Positions 21,274 through 27,721 of a stretch of 64,000 bases of DNA are shown here, in pieces. Position numbers and translations under genes: made by a program. The DNA is from Acidobacteriota bacterium. GTDB lineage: Bacteria > Acidobacteriota > Terriglobia > Acidiferrales > UBA7541. How positions within the stretch are numbered: position 1 is the stretch's first letter; every line of letters begins with the position of its first letter. The notes under the pieces were generated by a model that was not told the origin of the DNA, searched no databases, and saw nothing but the letters and a program-made list of their open reading frames with translations. Where the stretch lies: positions 248,001 to 312,000 of the forward strand of contig JABCZG010000001.1 in NCBI GenBank assembly GCA_013289835.1, read 5' to 3'.

Positions 21274-21302
21274 TTGACATGCGGGCGAATTTCCTCTAAG
21301 TT
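21274..21302 (+). promoter_or_regulatory. his operon promoter candidate
   Basis: A perfect TTGACA at 21274-21279 is followed after 17 bases by TAAGTT (21297-21302), a fair -10 box. Transcription would begin near 21309, only about five bases before the leader-peptide ATG, so the leader would be translated as a nearly leaderless mRNA; indeed no ribosome-binding site precedes that ATG. Confidence 0.6.
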
Positions 21303-21313
21303 CGAGCTTCGCA

Positions 21314-21394
21314 ATGAACGGTACACTTACAGTTCGGGCGCATCGCCACCATCATCATCACGGCCACGAGCCGCGCCTGCTGAGGTGTGCATAG
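21314..21394 (+). CDS. hisL: his operon leader peptide
   Basis: 26 codons ending in TAG. The peptide is [18 protein letters not shown] followed by EPRLLRCA, with seven histidines, five of them consecutive (codons 12-16). Ribosome stalling here when His-tRNA is scarce is the sensing step of his attenuation. The first gene downstream is hisI, and the competing RNA folds start six bases after the last His codon. Confidence 0.9.
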
Positions 21395-21432
21395 CGATTC
21401 GCTAAACAAAGCACTCTTCAGCCCGCTGGCGC
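21373..21432 (+). promoter_or_regulatory. his antiterminator fold
   Basis: GCTGAGGTGTGC (21379-21390) pairs with GCACTCTTCAGC (21411-21422) at 11 of 12 positions, and GCGCC (21373-21377) pairs with GGCGC (21428-21432). Together these sequester the 5' arm of the terminator (21422-21429). A small TAGCG-ATT-CGCTA hairpin (21392-21404) nests inside. A ribosome reaching the stop codon at 21392 would cover the first arm and free the terminator; one stalled on the His codons would leave it available. Confidence 0.75.
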
Positions 21433-21454
21433 AGCAAGCCCCAGCGGGTTTTTT
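21422..21454 (+). terminator. his attenuator terminator
   Basis: CCCGCTGG and CCAGCGGG form a perfect 8-bp GC-rich stem with an 11-base loop, followed directly by six T (and four more after one G). It lies between the leader peptide and hisI. Confidence 0.92.
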
Positions 21455-21488
21455 GTTTTCAGATCGTTTGGTTTCGGGAGGTACAGAC

Positions 21489-21878
21489 GTGGAGATCGAT
21501 TTTCAGAAAAGCGGCGGGTTGGTGCCGGCGATCATTCAGGACGAGCGCAGTGGCGAGGTGCTGATGCTTGGCTTCATGAACGGCGACTCGCTGGCGGAGA
21601 CGCGACGACTTGGCGAAGTCGTGTTCTTCAGCCGTTCAAGGAATAAGCTCTGGAAGAAGGGTGAATCCAGCGGACACGTCTTGCGAGTTCGCGAAATCCG
21701 TGTGGACTGCGATGCGGATGCGCTGCTTGTGCGTGTTGAGCCAGTGGGGCCGGGCGTCTGCCATGAAGGCTATCGAAGCTGTTTTTTCCGCGCGCTTGGA
21801 GCCGACGGGGACGCAACGATCATCGCCGTGCGCACGTTCGAACCCGAGAAGATCTACGGGCAGGAGAAGGCGCGATGA
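21489..21878 (+). CDS. hisI: phosphoribosyl-AMP cyclohydrolase
   Basis: 129 residues from the GTG at 21489 after GGGAGGT. Opens the ring of PR-AMP, the third step of histidine synthesis. The zinc/metal motifs are [12 protein letters not shown] and [12 protein letters not shown]; the hydrophobic [11 protein letters not shown] and [18 protein letters not shown] blocks are typical. There is no HisE pyrophosphohydrolase extension, so that activity must come from elsewhere. It is the first gene of the operon, an uncommon place for hisI, and overlaps hisG by 4 bases. Confidence 0.95.
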
Positions 21879-22747
21879 ACCGGTTGAAGCTGGGAATTCC
21901 AAAAGGCAGCCTGCAAGATGCGACGCTTGATCTCTTCGGGCGCGCAGGGTGGAAAATCACGTTGGGCTCGCGAAGTTACGTTCCGGCGATTGACGATGAC
22001 GAAATCGAATGTTTGCTGGTTCGCGCGCAGGAGATGGCGCGCTACGTTGAGTCCGGCGCGCTGGACGCGGGCATCACTGGGCATGATTGGGTCGTGGAGA
22101 CCGGCGCCGCGGTGGAGGAACTGTCCGAGCTCGTCTACGCCAAGCAGCGGCTGGCGCGGGTGCGTTGGGTGCTGGCCGTGCCGGAGGATTCGGCGATCCG
22201 CGATGCGCGCGGTCTAGAGGGCAAGGTCATCGCGACCGAAGTCGTTCGAATCACCGAGAGTTATCTTTCGAAACACGGAGTAAAGGCACGCGTGGAATTT
22301 TCGTGGGGAGCGACGGAAGTAAAAGTGCCGCAACTTGCCGACGCCATCGTGGAAGTCACGGAGACAGGTTCGTCGCTCCGCGCCAATCGGCTGCGCATCG
22401 TGGACACGGTGCTGGAATCCGCGACAGTGTTCATCATGAACCACGCGGCGGCGGCCGATTCCTGGAAACGCGAGAAGGCAGAGAACCTGATTCTTATGCT
22501 GCAAGGCGCAATTGCGGCCGCCAGCAAAGTGGGTCTTTTGCTTAACGTGCACCGGAACGATTTGGCGGCGGTGTTGAACGTTCTTCCCGCGCTCAAGAAG
22601 CCCACGATTTCGGCACTGAGCGATCCGGATTGGGTGGCGATCAATACCATTGTTGAAGAAGCGGTTGTGCGGCAGATTCTGCCAAAACTGAAAGCCGCCA
22701 AAGCGCAGGGGATTGTCGAGTATCCCCTGAATAAGATCGTGCTCTGA
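21875..22747 (+). CDS. hisG: ATP phosphoribosyltransferase, long form
   Basis: 290 residues, the long form that carries its own C-terminal regulatory domain and needs no HisZ. It catalyses the first, histidine-inhibited step. Visible: [22 protein letters not shown] at the start, [10 protein letters not shown] and the PRPP loop region [20 protein letters not shown]; the last about 75 residues ([28 protein letters not shown]..) are the ACT-like allosteric domain. Overlaps hisI by 4 bases and hisD by 1. Confidence 0.96.
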
Positions 22748-24000
22748 TGCGCATCGTGAGACTCACACCGGCGGTCGAGAAAAAACTTCTTCGCGCGCGC
22801 CAAGAGCACGACGCCGAGGCTCAACGCGTCGCGGAGCAGATTATCAGCGACGTTCGCCGGCGTGGGGACACGGCGCTCTATGCATGGGCAAAGAAGTTAG
22901 ACGGCATGGATTTCCGGCGCGAAGGACCGTGGATCCCTGAGAGCGAAATTCGCGCTGCACGCAAGGAAGTGAGCGACAATTTTCTGCAAGCGGTGGAACA
23001 TGCCGCGTGCAACGTCCGCCGCGTAGCGGAGAAGCAACTGCCGAAACCGTGGGCCATCAAAGTCGAACGAGGAGTAGAAATCGGCCAAGTCGTGCGGCCG
23101 ATCAAATCCATTGGCTGCTACGTTCCAGGCGGGCAATTCTCTCTGCTTTCGACTTTGGTCATGACAGTTGTGCCGGCAAGGGTGGCCGGGGTGTCTCAGA
23201 TCCAGGTGGCGTGTCCGCGGCCGAACGTAGCGTTGCTTGCAGCAGCGAGCATCCTCGGCGTCACGCGCATCGCTCGAATCGGAGGCGCTCAAGCCGTTGC
23301 CGCATTTGCTTACGGCACAAAACGCGTGCCGCGCGTGGAGAAGATATTCGGACCAGGGAATCGTTTCGTCACCGCGGCCAAGCAGCTCGTTAGCAATGAC
23401 TGCGCGATCGATCTCCCGGCCGGGCCGACCGAAGCGATTGTCTTGGCAACAAATGGCAACTCTAGATGGATCGCCGCGGATTTGCTCGCGCAAGCCGAAC
23501 ACGCGACGGATGCAGGAAGTTTTTTTGTGACAACCTCAATGCGACTGGCACAACAAGTTCAAAGGGAAACGCTCCGGCAGCTGCAGCAATTGCCGCGAAG
23601 CAATCCCGCGCACCTTTCCATGAAGCGCGCGAGCGCGATCCTCGTGGCGCCGTCCCTCCGAGTAGCATGCGAATTTGTAAATCGATTTGCTCCGGAGCAT
23701 TTGAGTTTGCCGGACGATGGAGAGGCCCTCTTGAAAAAAATTCACGCTGCCGGCACGGTTTTCTTGGGTCCGTGGGCCGCGCAGCCGCTTGGCGATTACG
23801 CCAGCGGCAGCAATCACGTGTTGCCCACGAGCGGCTGGGCGCGCAGGCGCGGCGGGCTCTCAGCGGCTGATTTTGTGAAATGCATCAGCGTCCAATCCAT
23901 CGACCGCGCTGGCTTCGCAAAGCTGGCGAATGATGTGCAGACGCTGGCACGCGCCGAAGGGCTGTTGGCACACGCAAACGCCGTGGAGATACGCCGATGA
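22747..24000 (+). CDS. hisD: histidinol dehydrogenase
   Basis: 417 residues. Oxidises histidinol to histidine in the last two steps with NAD and zinc. Recognised by CYVPGGQFSLLSTLVMTVVPARVAGV, GAQAVAAFAYGT, KIFGPGNRFVTAAKQLV, PAGPTEAIVLA, AQAEHATDAGSF and NRFAPEHLSLPDD. Ser/Arg residues of the usual YVPGGxAxYPS block differ (here QFSLLS). The end GSNHVLPTSGWARRRGGLS is canonical. ATGA overlap with hisC. Confidence 0.96.
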   Translation: MRIVRLTPAVEKKLLRARQEHDAEAQRVAEQIISDVRRRGDTALYAWAKKLDGMDFRREGPWIPESEIRAARKEVSDNFLQAVEHAACNVRRVAEKQLPKPWAIKVERGVEIGQVVRPIKSIGCYVPGGQFSLLSTLVMTVVPARVAGVSQIQVACPRPNVALLAAASILGVTRIARIGGAQAVAAFAYGTKRVPRVEKIFGPGNRFVTAAKQLVSNDCAIDLPAGPTEAIVLATNGNSRWIAADLLAQAEHATDAGSFFVTTSMRLAQQVQRETLRQLQQLPRSNPAHLSMKRASAILVAPSLRVACEFVNRFAPEHLSLPDDGEALLKKIHAAGTVFLGPWAAQPLGDYASGSNHVLPTSGWARRRGGLSAADFVKCISVQSIDRAGFAKLANDVQTLARAEGLLAHANAVEIRR

Positions 24001-25061
24001 AAGTGCGATTACCCGTGCGCGAGGCCATTTTGCATCGCCGCACGTATGAAGCGCCTGCCGAAGGACGATCGGACAAGGTGCGCCTGGACTTCAATGAAAA
24101 CACCGCAGGTTGCTCGCCGGCAGTGCGGCGAGCGCTTGCCAAGCTTACGAGCAACCAACTGGCGATGTACCCCGAGTACCAAGCCCCAACGCAACGCCTG
24201 GCGCGCTATTTTCGCGTGCGTCCGGAGGAACTGCTGCTCGCCAACGGCGGAGACGACGCACTGCGCGTTTTCTTTGATACCTTCGTCGAGCCGGGCACCA
24301 GCATCTTGATCTGCGAGCCGACCTTTCCCATGTACCGCTACTACGCGGAGATTTACGGCGCCAGGATTGTGGTTTTGCGCTATGGCAGTCAGATGGAGTT
24401 TCCGCTCAAAGAGGTCGTCACGGCGTTGCGAAAGAAACCGCGAGTGGTCTTCATCGCGAATCCGAATAACCCCACTGGGACCTTGTTGCGCGAAAACGAG
24501 CTGCGGACAATCCTGCTGGCCGCTACGCACACGGCCGTTGTGATGGATGAAGCCTATGCGGAGTTCTCCGGCTTCTCCGCGGTGCCTTTGATTCGAAACT
24601 ATCCTCAATTATTCGTCACAAGAACGTTTTCGAAAGTGGCCGGGCTGGCGTCCCTGCGGCTCGGCGCAGTAATTGCCTGTGAGAAGTCGCTCGCAATGGT
24701 GCGCCGTGCCATGCCGCCCTTCCCTGTCAACCTCGCGGCCCTGGTGGCAGCAGAAGCGGCCGTCGCCGACCGCGCGACCATGCTGGGTTACGTGAAAGAA
24801 GTAAAGCGATTGCGCGTCTGGTTCGCTGCGGAACTGAGAAAATTAGGCGCTGAAACCTTTTCCAGCGCCGGAAATTTTCTTCTGGCAAATTTCGGGCCAG
24901 ACGGACCGGCGTTGTTTTACAAATTAGAGAAACAAGGGATTCTTCTGCGCGACCGAAGCAAAGACATTGGCCCGGGATTTGTCCGCATCACCATTGGTAC
25001 GCAGTCCGAAATGAAACTGGTGCTGAAAGCCATTCGAAAGGAATTGAGAGCGCCAGCCTAA
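23997..25061 (+). CDS. hisC: histidinol-phosphate aminotransferase
   Basis: 354 residues, a fold-type I PLP aminotransferase. LDFNENTAG at the start, NGGDDALRVFFDTF, ANPNNPTGTLL, DEAYAEFSG and the PLP-lysine block RTFSKVAGLASLRLGAVI are all present; the C-terminal Arg region is GFVRITIGT. Converts imidazole-acetol phosphate to histidinol phosphate. A 23-base gap follows before hisB, the only such gap inside the operon. Confidence 0.94.
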   Translation: MKVRLPVREAILHRRTYEAPAEGRSDKVRLDFNENTAGCSPAVRRALAKLTSNQLAMYPEYQAPTQRLARYFRVRPEELLLANGGDDALRVFFDTFVEPGTSILICEPTFPMYRYYAEIYGARIVVLRYGSQMEFPLKEVVTALRKKPRVVFIANPNNPTGTLLRENELRTILLAATHTAVVMDEAYAEFSGFSAVPLIRNYPQLFVTRTFSKVAGLASLRLGAVIACEKSLAMVRRAMPPFPVNLAALVAAEAAVADRATMLGYVKEVKRLRVWFAAELRKLGAETFSSAGNFLLANFGPDGPALFYKLEKQGILLRDRSKDIGPGFVRITIGTQSEMKLVLKAIRKELRAPA

Positions 25062-25084
25062 ACGCTAGCGCCCAATAATTTGCC

Positions 25085-25675
25085 ATGCCACGCAAAGCGA
25101 TCATTCATCGCAAGACGAACGAGACGGACATTCGCCTCACGCTGAATCTGGAAGGGCTTGGAAAGGCGCGAATTTCCACCGGCATTCGTTTTTTCGATCA
25201 CATGCTCGAACTGGTCGCCCGCCACGGCGCCTTTGATCTGGACGTAAACGCACGCGGCGATCTCGATGTGGATCAACATCACACCGTGGAAGACGTTGGG
25301 ATCGCGCTGGGCGAGGCGGTGCAGAAGGCTCTTGGCTCCAAGCGCGGCATTTTGCGCGCCGGATACTTTCTGATGCCCATGGACGAAACGCTTGCCGCGG
25401 CGGCCGTGGACTTGGGTGGCAGACCTTTTTGCGTCGTAAATGCAAAGATCAGCGCAAAGCGCGTCGGCGATTTTCAAGTGGAGCTTGTCGAGGATTTCTT
25501 TCAGGGCTTTTCACAGGCCGCCAGGGCCAACGTGCATCTGCGCGCGTTATACGGACGCTCGTCGCATCATCAAGTCGAAGCCATGTTTAAGGCGTTTGCG
25601 CGAGCGCTGCGTTTTGCAGTTGCGAGAGACAAGCGCCTGCGGAAGGTTCTGCCGAGCACTAAAGGGCTGCTATGA
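25085..25675 (+). CDS. hisB: imidazoleglycerol-phosphate dehydratase
   Basis: 196 residues, dehydratase only; the bifunctional phosphatase domain found in enterobacteria is absent. Metal-binding repeats [14 protein letters not shown] and [16 protein letters not shown] are intact, as is [16 protein letters not shown]. Because no histidinol-phosphate phosphatase is encoded here, that step must be supplied from elsewhere. ATGA overlap with hisH. Confidence 0.96.
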
Positions 25676-26277
25676 AAGTGACGATCGTGGACTATGGGGC
25701 AGGAAATGTGCCTTCCGTGGAGCGAGCCCTGCAACGACTCGGCGCAGATTCGGAGCGGACTACTTCTCCCGAGCTCATTTCTAAAGCGGAGGCGCTGCTG
25801 CTACCCGGCGTTGGACATTACGCCGCTCTGGTTCGCGCGCTTGACGAACAAAATCTGCGCGCGCCTGTGATCGAGGCCATCCGGCAAGGCGTGCCGTTTC
25901 TCGGAATCTGTCTTGGGCTGCAAGTTCTGTATGAATCCAGTGAAGAGGCTTCGGAACTGCGAGGCCTGAACCTGCTTCCGGGAAAAGTATGCGCGCTGCC
26001 TGCCACAGTAAAACTCCCTCACATGGGCTGGAATCAGCTCGCGGCCAAGCGCGAGTCGCGGCTTTTGGAAGGAATCGCCGGAGATTCCTACTTTTACTTT
26101 GCGCATTCGTTCGCCCTGCTCGATTCGGACGGCAGCACGGCCGCAACGTGCACGCATGGTACGGATTTCGCTGCCGTTGTGGAAAAACAGAATATTTTCG
26201 CCGTCCAATTCCATCCGGAAAAAAGCGGCGAACCAGGTGCGCGCTTATTGCGCAACTTTCTGAGGCTGGCTGCATGA
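25672..26277 (+). CDS. hisH: imidazole glycerol phosphate synthase, glutaminase subunit
   Basis: 201 residues. Class-I glutamine amidotransferase: nucleophile Cys in [13 protein letters not shown], His and Glu in [13 protein letters not shown]. Supplies ammonia to HisF. The N-terminal [22 protein letters not shown] and LPGVGHY are conserved. Overlaps hisF by ATGA. Confidence 0.96.
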
Positions 26278-27038
26278 GCCTGGCGCACCGCATCATTCCC
26301 TGCCTCGATACCGATGGCGAGCGCGTCGTAAAAGGCGTGAACTTCGTGGGGCTCCGTGACGCAGGTGATCCCGTTGCGCTTGCTGGGCGCTATAACGCCG
26401 AAGGCGCCGATGAGTTGGTGGTGCTCGACATCGCAGCGTCACGCGACCGGCGTCCGACCTTTCTCGAGACGATCCGGCGCGTGGCCGCCGAGCTGGCCAT
26501 TCCGCTAACGGCGGGCGGCGGCATTCGAACACTCGAGGATGGCCGCGCCGTGGTCCGCGCCGGCGCGGACAAAGTCACAGTAAACACTGCCGCCGTCGAA
26601 CGGCCAGAATTAATTTCAGAATTATCGCGCGAATTTGGCGCGCAAGCGGTGGTACTGGCGATTGACGCGAAACGTTGCGGCGATCATTGGCAGGTGATGG
26701 TGCGCGGGGGAGGTGAATCCACGCCATTGGATGCTGTCGCTTGGGCGAAAAAAGGCGTCGCGCAGGGCGCGGGAGAAATCCTGCTGACCTCCGTGGATCG
26801 TGACGGCACGCAGAGCGGCTTCGACGTGGCGCTCACAGCGGCGATTTCCGAGGCCGTTTCGGTTCCTGTGATTGCCTCCGGCGGGGCCAAACTGCCGGAA
26901 CACTTCGTCGAAATTTTCCAACAAGGTGCGGCGGACGCCGCGCTAGCCGCATCCATTTTTCACGACAGCGTACAACCCATCCGCGCGCTGAAGGAGTTTC
27001 TCGCAGCAAAGGGTGTCGAGGTGCGTTTTCCGTGCTGA
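26274..27038 (+). CDS. hisF: imidazole glycerol phosphate synthase, cyclase subunit
   Basis: 254 residues from the ATG at 26274; the frame is open further upstream inside hisH but that part is a shadow. TIM barrel with catalytic Asp in IPCLDTDGERVVKGVNF and in AIDAKR, phosphate loops GGGIRT and ASGGA. It uses ammonia from HisH to make IGP and AICAR. Overlaps hisA by 7 bases; hisF precedes hisA, the reverse of the common order. Confidence 0.96.
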   Translation: MSLAHRIIPCLDTDGERVVKGVNFVGLRDAGDPVALAGRYNAEGADELVVLDIAASRDRRPTFLETIRRVAAELAIPLTAGGGIRTLEDGRAVVRAGADKVTVNTAAVERPELISELSREFGAQAVVLAIDAKRCGDHWQVMVRGGGESTPLDAVAWAKKGVAQGAGEILLTSVDRDGTQSGFDVALTAAISEAVSVPVIASGGAKLPEHFVEIFQQGAADAALAASIFHDSVQPIRALKEFLAAKGVEVRFPC

Positions 27039-27721
27039 TTCCCTGCATCGATTTGCAAGACGGCCAAGCAGTCCAATTGGTGCATGGGCGGAAACGAGAA
27101 CTAGCCGTCGCTGACGTCTTCGGCCTCCTGCAGGAATTCAAGAAATACCCATGGCTGCACATCATTGATCTAGATGCGGCCATGGGAAAAGGCGCGAATG
27201 ATGAACTCGCGTGCGAGCTTTGCGCGCGGGCACGGAAAGAGTTCGGAAGGAAGGTTCGCGTTGGCGGTGGGATTCGAACCATTGCCCGCGCGGAAGAAAT
27301 TGCCAGCTGGGACGCGAACCAAATCATCATTGGGAGCGCCGCCTTCCGGGAAGGCAAAGTGAACACCCGTCTTCTGCGGCGGCTTGCGAAAACAATGAGT
27401 CCCGAACAAATCGTCATCGCCCTCGACACTGCCAAGGGCAAGATCACGATTCATGGCTGGCGGAAACGGCTAGCGCTGCAAGCCGAACAGGTGTTCGCGC
27501 AGCTCGAACCTTTCTGCGGGGGCTTCTTGTGCACTGACGTGGACCGCGAAGGCACCATGACAGGCGCGAACCTTGATTGGTTTCGAATGCTCCGCGGCGC
27601 AACGTCGCATCCGATTATTGCCGCCGGCGGCATCAAAACGCGGAGCGAGATCACGGCCTTGGAAAAAATGGGAATGGACGCCGCCGTGGGGATGGCCCTA
27701 TACAAAAAGCGGCTACGCTGA
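27032..27721 (+). CDS. hisA: ProFAR isomerase
   Basis: 229 residues, slightly short for HisA (about 240). IPCIDLQDGQAVQLVHG at the start holds the first catalytic Asp; the second is in CTDVDREGTMTGANLDWF. Phosphate-binding GGGIRT and AAGGIKTRSEI are present. It starts with GTG inside the hisF end. Last gene of the operon; no terminator is evident after it. Confidence 0.93.
   Translation: MLIPCIDLQDGQAVQLVHGRKRELAVADVFGLLQEFKKYPWLHIIDLDAAMGKGANDELACELCARARKEFGRKVRVGGGIRTIARAEEIASWDANQIIIGSAAFREGKVNTRLLRRLAKTMSPEQIVIALDTAKGKITIHGWRKRLALQAEQVFAQLEPFCGGFLCTDVDREGTMTGANLDWFRMLRGATSHPIIAAGGIKTRSEITALEKMGMDAAVGMALYKKRLR

Follow-up and report, generated by a model that had tools for sequence, protein, structure and literature searches.

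The his operon of this soil acidobacterium is very probably controlled by a ribosome-mediated transcription attenuator, a known kind of switch, and would respond to histidine. This reading comes from the sequence, from comparison with relatives and from modelled RNA folds. In the window, by which we mean the whole 64,000-nt stretch of DNA that was analysed, we found a His-rich leader ORF, a terminator located before the first structural gene, and a pairing between a segment within the ORF (region 1) and a segment at its end (region 2), which are among the features by which an attenuator is recognized. That roughly half of the his operons in a phylum-wide sample have such a leader argues that the switch is real.

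The his operon and its leader

The features of the region, all on the forward strand, are as follows.

21274-21279, + strand: −35 box TTGACA (sequence); 53 of 79 relatives have TTGAC ahead of the leader ATG
21297-21302, + strand: −10 box TAAGTT after a 17-bp spacer, ending 11 nt before the leader ATG (sequence, relatives)
21314-21394, + strand: leader ORF of 26 codons (sequence; kept in relatives)
21314-21316 and 21392-21394, + strand: start ATG and stop TAG of the leader (sequence)
21336-21341, + strand: region 1 (R1), GGGCGC, pairs with 21373-21378 (fold; relatives)
21341-21367, + strand: putative regulatory His codons 10, 12-16 and 18 (sequence; His/Gln codon counts in relatives)
21373-21377, + strand: region 2a (R2a), GCGCC, the common partner of R1 and R3b
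21379-21390, + strand: region 2b (R2b), the final codons of the leader, pairs with 21411-21422
21392-21404, + strand: small hairpin TAGCG-ATT-CGCTA, which holds the stop codon and caps the 2:3 helix (fold)
21411-21422, + strand: region 3a (R3a), partner of R2b
21422-21432, + strand: region 3b (R3b), with the terminator 5′ arm (21422-21429) and GGCGC (21428-21432), which alternatively pairs with R2a
21441-21459, + strand: terminator 3′ arm (21441-21448) and T-run (21449-21459) (sequence)
21476-21481, + strand: Shine-Dalgarno sequence of hisI, GGGAGG (sequence), outside the attenuator folds; anti-SD duplex −9.8 kcal/mol
21489-21878, + strand: hisI, GTG start, phosphoribosyl-AMP cyclohydrolase (NCBIfam NF000768, 142.4 bits, cut-off 126)
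21875-27721, + strand: hisG, hisD, hisC, hisB, hisH, hisF and hisA (NCBIfam; ORF coordinates)

The leader ORF contains seven His codons, five of them consecutive, and is the sole short ORF on either strand of the window with at least four His in seven codons. A preliminary description of this DNA had reported the 26-codon leader, its His codons, the end of the last of these at 21367 and the stop codon at 21392, and all of these coordinates proved correct on the sequence. Downstream of leader and terminator the genes, identified with NCBIfam models, stand in the order hisI-G-D-C-B-H-F-A; those from hisG to hisA overlap or almost overlap and form the regulated operon together with hisI. The longest ORF for hisI (21387-21878), as given by a default ORF caller, begins at a GTG at 21387, which lies within the attenuator. 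Such a mis-start in automatic annotation may conceal the leader.

Alternative pairings and their conservation

The RNA can be divided into R1 (21336-21341), R2 (21373-21390), R3 (21411-21432) and R4 (21441-21448). The terminator consists of CCCGCTGG (21422-21429) paired with CCAGCGGG (21441-21448) at eight of eight positions, followed by TTTTTTGTTTT at 21449-21459. Between 21379-21390 and 21411-21422, 11 of 12 positions pair, one of them as G.U, with a U.U mismatch at 21386/21415, and GCGCC at 21373-21377 matches GGCGC at 21428-21432 perfectly. The terminator, as a perfect 8-bp hairpin ending in a T-run, and both of these pairings had been proposed earlier, and our analysis bears them out. Folding of 21300-21460, a check that the preliminary description had suggested, gave −60.2 kcal/mol with a z score of −3.35, and 2 of 200 shuffled sequences were equally good. 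The minimum-energy fold also revealed the pairing of R1, within the ORF, with R2, at the ORF end. Addition of R1 completes the classic 1:2 / 2:3 / 3:4 layout; the earlier scheme of alternative folds had the pairings right but had overlooked both R1 and the promoter upstream of the ATG.

Conservation of the pairings was assessed in an alignment of 43 gp2 sequences (A1), which is uncertain near the His run; many of the sequences analysed in this study are close relatives. In the terminator helix 98.5% of the cells were paired and 10 were changed on both sides. For R1:R2a, 79.9% of the cells were paired and 17 were changed on both sides, a level reached by 0 of 500 shuffles, and registers adjacent to R1:R2a also showed some double changes. 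R2:R3 was paired in 74.9% of the cells versus 29-49% with slid partners. Covariation of R2:R3 in this 43-sequence alignment was not above that of column shuffles, the changes being mostly one-sided to G.U. When the energy of the R2:R3 duplex was compared with that of dinucleotide shuffles of region 2, the mean z was −2.06, and 27 of 44 loci fell at or below 5%. The CGC past the terminator arm is kept in most gp2 relatives; by eye, two loci (L016 and L017) appear to be without GCGCC:GGCGC.

Predicted competition between terminator and antiterminator

The 12-pair helix and the terminator overlap by one base and can form together; what conflicts with the terminator is the 5-bp GCGCC:GGCGC pairing alone. 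The preliminary description had the competing fold capture the 5′ arm of the terminator, which applies to GCGCC:GGCGC but not to the 12-pair helix alone. It had also expected stalled and finished ribosomes to give opposite folds. At equilibrium this was not the case: the terminator was favoured in every ribosome state, its probability in the window being 0.99-1.0 even with a stalled ribosome masking R1, so that equilibrium folding could not prove a switch for the window. Kinetic folding was therefore examined. On progressive folding the antiterminator was the minimum-energy structure for RNA 3′ ends from 21432 to 21444, and the fold flipped from 21445 onward. The computed barrier on the direct path from antiterminator to terminator was 10.9 kcal/mol, an upper bound obtained with a path heuristic. 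Since the terminator is preferred at equilibrium and only GCGCC:GGCGC conflicts with it, antitermination in the window would have to be kinetic.

Across 81 loci, masking of R1 raised the pairing between region 2 and the terminator arm from 0.44 to 0.75, compared with 0.56 for a shuffled region 2. The window's own sequestration score of 0.59 was not above that of its shuffled region 2 (0.68), so the window alone does not prove sequestration of the terminator arm. At six gp13-type loci (L058, L059, L061, L065, L069 and L073) equilibrium favours the antiterminator, as it does in textbook examples, the probability of the terminator being 0-0.08 with the ribosome stalled at the first His and 0.99-1.0 with the ribosome at the stop. 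In the gp13-type loci L058-L074, region 2 reads TGTCAG[T/C]GGGC (Cys-Gln-Trp/Arg-Ala codons). It resembles the terminator 3′ arm and consequently makes a simple exclusive antiterminator.

The same leader and terminator could also work without 2:3 acting as an antiterminator, if ribosome travel or a 2:3 pause hairpin exerted the control and the terminator were always able to form. Such a scheme would agree with the 11-bp R2b:R3a helix, which lies directly against the terminator and can form alongside it, and with the terminator probability of 0.99-1.0 in the stalled window. However, the GGCGC that pairs with GCGCC reaches into the terminator loop and is kept in most gp2 relatives, related clades have exclusive antiterminators, and the antiterminator is the minimum-energy structure until the 3′ arm emerges. 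We consider this scheme improbable. Regulation at the level of translation, with folds that hide or expose the ribosome-binding site of hisI, has precedent in the translational variants of amino-acid attenuators (PMC9413887) but is very unlikely here, for the Shine-Dalgarno sequence of hisI at 21476-21481 is outside all predicted helices and the T-run, located right after a perfect GC-rich hairpin, is kept in relatives.

We therefore favour transcription attenuation, and infer translation of the leader, ribosome stalling, kinetic antitermination and a response to histidine as its parts. Transcription would begin a few bases ahead of the leader ATG, and the ribosome would load on an almost leaderless RNA. 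With ample charged tRNA-His the ribosome would reach the UAG and cover region 2, whereupon only the terminator (21422-21448) could form and RNA polymerase would stop. When histidine is scarce, the ribosome would stall on the His run and mask region 1. Region 2, thus freed, would pair with region 3, including GCGCC at 21373-21377 with GGCGC at 21428-21432, a pairing incompatible with the terminator. The antiterminator, being the minimum-energy structure at 3′ ends 21432-21444, would be displaced only across a barrier of ∼11 kcal/mol, and the polymerase would pass the T-run into hisI. Without a ribosome, region 1 would pair with region 2 and the terminator would form.

Distribution of His leaders and selection for His codons

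His-run leader ORFs were found before 81 of 95 distinct hisI loci of relatives, the window's own included, while none of the planctomycete hisI loci in the same recovered set has one. The comparison of regions upstream of hisI in relatives had been suggested in the preliminary description; in addition to the kept His runs it revealed the compensatory changes in the terminator and in R1:R2a described above. When his operons were sampled phylum-wide, 43 of 88 had a His leader, compared with 0 of 88 in an opposite-strand control, and about half were without one. Leaders occur in 16 of the 35 family labels sampled; under label f11 all 16 sampled operons have the leader, and under f33, f38, f42 and f57 nearly all are without it. 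To regard it as a notable single occurrence in an acidobacterium would understate it, the element being widespread in the phylum.

A covariance model built for the gp2 element found one strong site in the genome, located before hisI (E 6e-39). Of 297 genomes from the phylum, 58 also gave sites with this model, and the best 30, which were inspected, are mostly His leaders, with some false or other sites. A his operon that is actinobacterial, from a record titled Acidimicrobium sp. UBA3029 (L100), has the leader MAHHHVHHVSRRALV and a terminator, and its region 2:3 duplex is much stronger than those of shuffled sequences (z −4.9).

Codons were counted from the first to the last His of each leader. 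The first set contained 263 CAT, 212 CAC, 2 CAA and 3 CAG, and the phylum sample contained 141 CAT, 114 CAC, no CAA and 4 CAG. A ratio of 475 CAT/CAC to 5 CAA/CAG in the first set shows that His identity is selected, and base pairing cannot account for this bias. The His codons also sit at a similar distance ahead of region 2 among the loci.

These results bear on two further explanations. His-rich peptides can bind metals, and the window could hold a plain terminator together with a His-rich peptide of unrelated role, such as metal binding, with no coupling between them. We give this little credence, since the peptide is found at his operons throughout the phylum, its His codons keep their distance to region 2, and the terminator lies immediately before the first his gene. 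A chance arrangement without function, with which the not extreme fold of the window (z −3.35) taken alone would be compatible, is excluded by the conservation, both by the leader counts on the two strands (43 of 88 versus 0 of 88) and by the excess of His over Gln codons (475 to 5).

A predicted near-absence of the 5′ UTR

Of 79 leaders, 66 have a TANNNT motif that ends 6-12 nt before the ATG, where shuffling gives a mean of 9.5; in the phylum sample this holds for 29 of 39 leaders, with a shuffled mean of 3.5. In a control interval further upstream the motif was found in 1 and 2 leaders of the two sets, respectively. No Shine-Dalgarno sequence precedes the leader of the window, where the anti-SD duplex is −2.2 kcal versus −9.8 for hisI, and in relatives the median is −0.9 kcal/mol for leaders versus −7.4 for hisI. 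Transcription in the window most likely starts near 21309-21310, which would give a 5′ UTR some 4-5 nt long. More generally, the spacing of the promoters predicts a 5′ UTR of ∼0-6 nt and leaders that are leaderless or nearly so. The published criterion for leaderless genes, a −10 box some 10 nt ahead of the start codon and no Shine-Dalgarno sequence (PMC3160421), describes what is found here; by that study 9.7-19.4% of the genes in three Acidobacteria genomes are leaderless. The predicted near-absence of a 5′ UTR would offer a test case for leaderless initiation as a means of keeping ribosome and polymerase in step.

Other candidate amino-acid leaders

The second-best match of the covariance model in the genome lies outside the window (G000:C1:229439-229565, locus L112), before a gene for an aroF-type DAHP synthase. 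With the leader MNDAYRTCWFRFSGPPN and a terminator, it is a second candidate attenuator of this genome. Its relatives (L146, L147, L150, L153-L155, L157, L158 and L162) have leaders rich in Tyr, Trp and Phe, for example ..NSYYWYRFTW.. and ..HSYWFRFSGPPD, and several of these aromatic leaders have a −10-like box near the ATG. Locus L137, on the reverse strand in another acidobacterial family, has an Ile-rich leader, MFAQIGIIIIAISSPPPGG, followed by a terminator and by a gene whose translation reads as cimA-like (citramalate synthase), and may be an isoleucine attenuator. Locus L127, also on the reverse strand, has a Thr-rich ORF starting MFSVIATTTTGC, whose ATG is preceded at a distance of about 10 nt by a TACCAT box; the ORF is followed by a terminator and, again by reading of the translation, a homoserine dehydrogenase-like gene; this is possibly a threonine attenuator. 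With the scan used, no attenuators were found before trpE, ilvB or hom in the genome and its relatives.

Comparison with known systems

We lean slightly towards the view that these elements make up a phylum-wide class of attenuators. Such a class would have almost leaderless leader peptides, a his RNA of other descent than the His leader of gammaproteobacteria, and related aromatic (pre-aroF) and possibly Ile/Thr elements. Loading at the 5′ end would tie translation to the polymerase from the first codon, and the switch of the present clade would consist of a GCGCC contested by two identical GGCGC and read kinetically. The Rfam amino-acid leaders are regarded as largely gammaproteobacterial (PMC3766115). 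The Rfam family RF00514 (His_leader) has no match in the window at the gathering score and none in six loci up to an E value of 5. The Rfam matches obtained for the window include no T-box, and neither a leader nor a T-box family was found in the window (gathering score) or in the six loci (lax threshold). The open literature that we searched gives no account of an acidobacterial his attenuator; Lopatovskaya 2010 and Vitreschak 2004 might contain one. Almost no predicted attenuator of Acidobacteria had an assigned function in the study of Naville and Gautheret 2010 (PMC2965389), and a his attenuator across much of this abundant soil phylum would partly fill that gap. The element would also serve as a ready-made sensor of histidine in acidobacteria that can be cultured.

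Outside the Gammaproteobacteria, a His leader of hisS/hisZ has been predicted in bacilli (PMC2965389), and candidate his attenuators with 3-5 His in a row have been reported from 17 genomes of the Bacillus cereus group, Peptostreptococcaceae and Erysipelotrichales (PMC9413887). Like these Firmicutes candidates, the present element has a leader peptide with His codons, a terminator and a putative antiterminator, predicted by comparison; unlike them, it belongs to another phylum, where it occurs in a large part of the Acidobacteriota. With regard to its 5′ end, it resembles trpL of Sinorhizobium meliloti, which is leaderless, its reported 5′ end being the ATG (PMC7298713), and the polycysteine sORFs of mycobacteria, which are leaderless leader peptides (Canestrari 2020, as cited in PMC13236596). 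As these sources present them, the ORFs share with the present leader a position at or near the RNA 5′ end and the lack of a Shine-Dalgarno sequence, and differ from it in amino acid and phylum; the 5′ end in the present case is deduced from the promoter position. The overall arrangement is that of E. coli hisL (RF00514), with a short His-run ORF, alternative hairpins and an intrinsic terminator that precedes the first his gene, and hisL likewise has a run of seven His codons, as read from its sequence. The two differ in that the first gene is hisI in the window operon and hisG in E. coli, and in the distance from the end of the nearest TANNNT to the ATG, which is 38 nt for hisL and 11 nt in the window.
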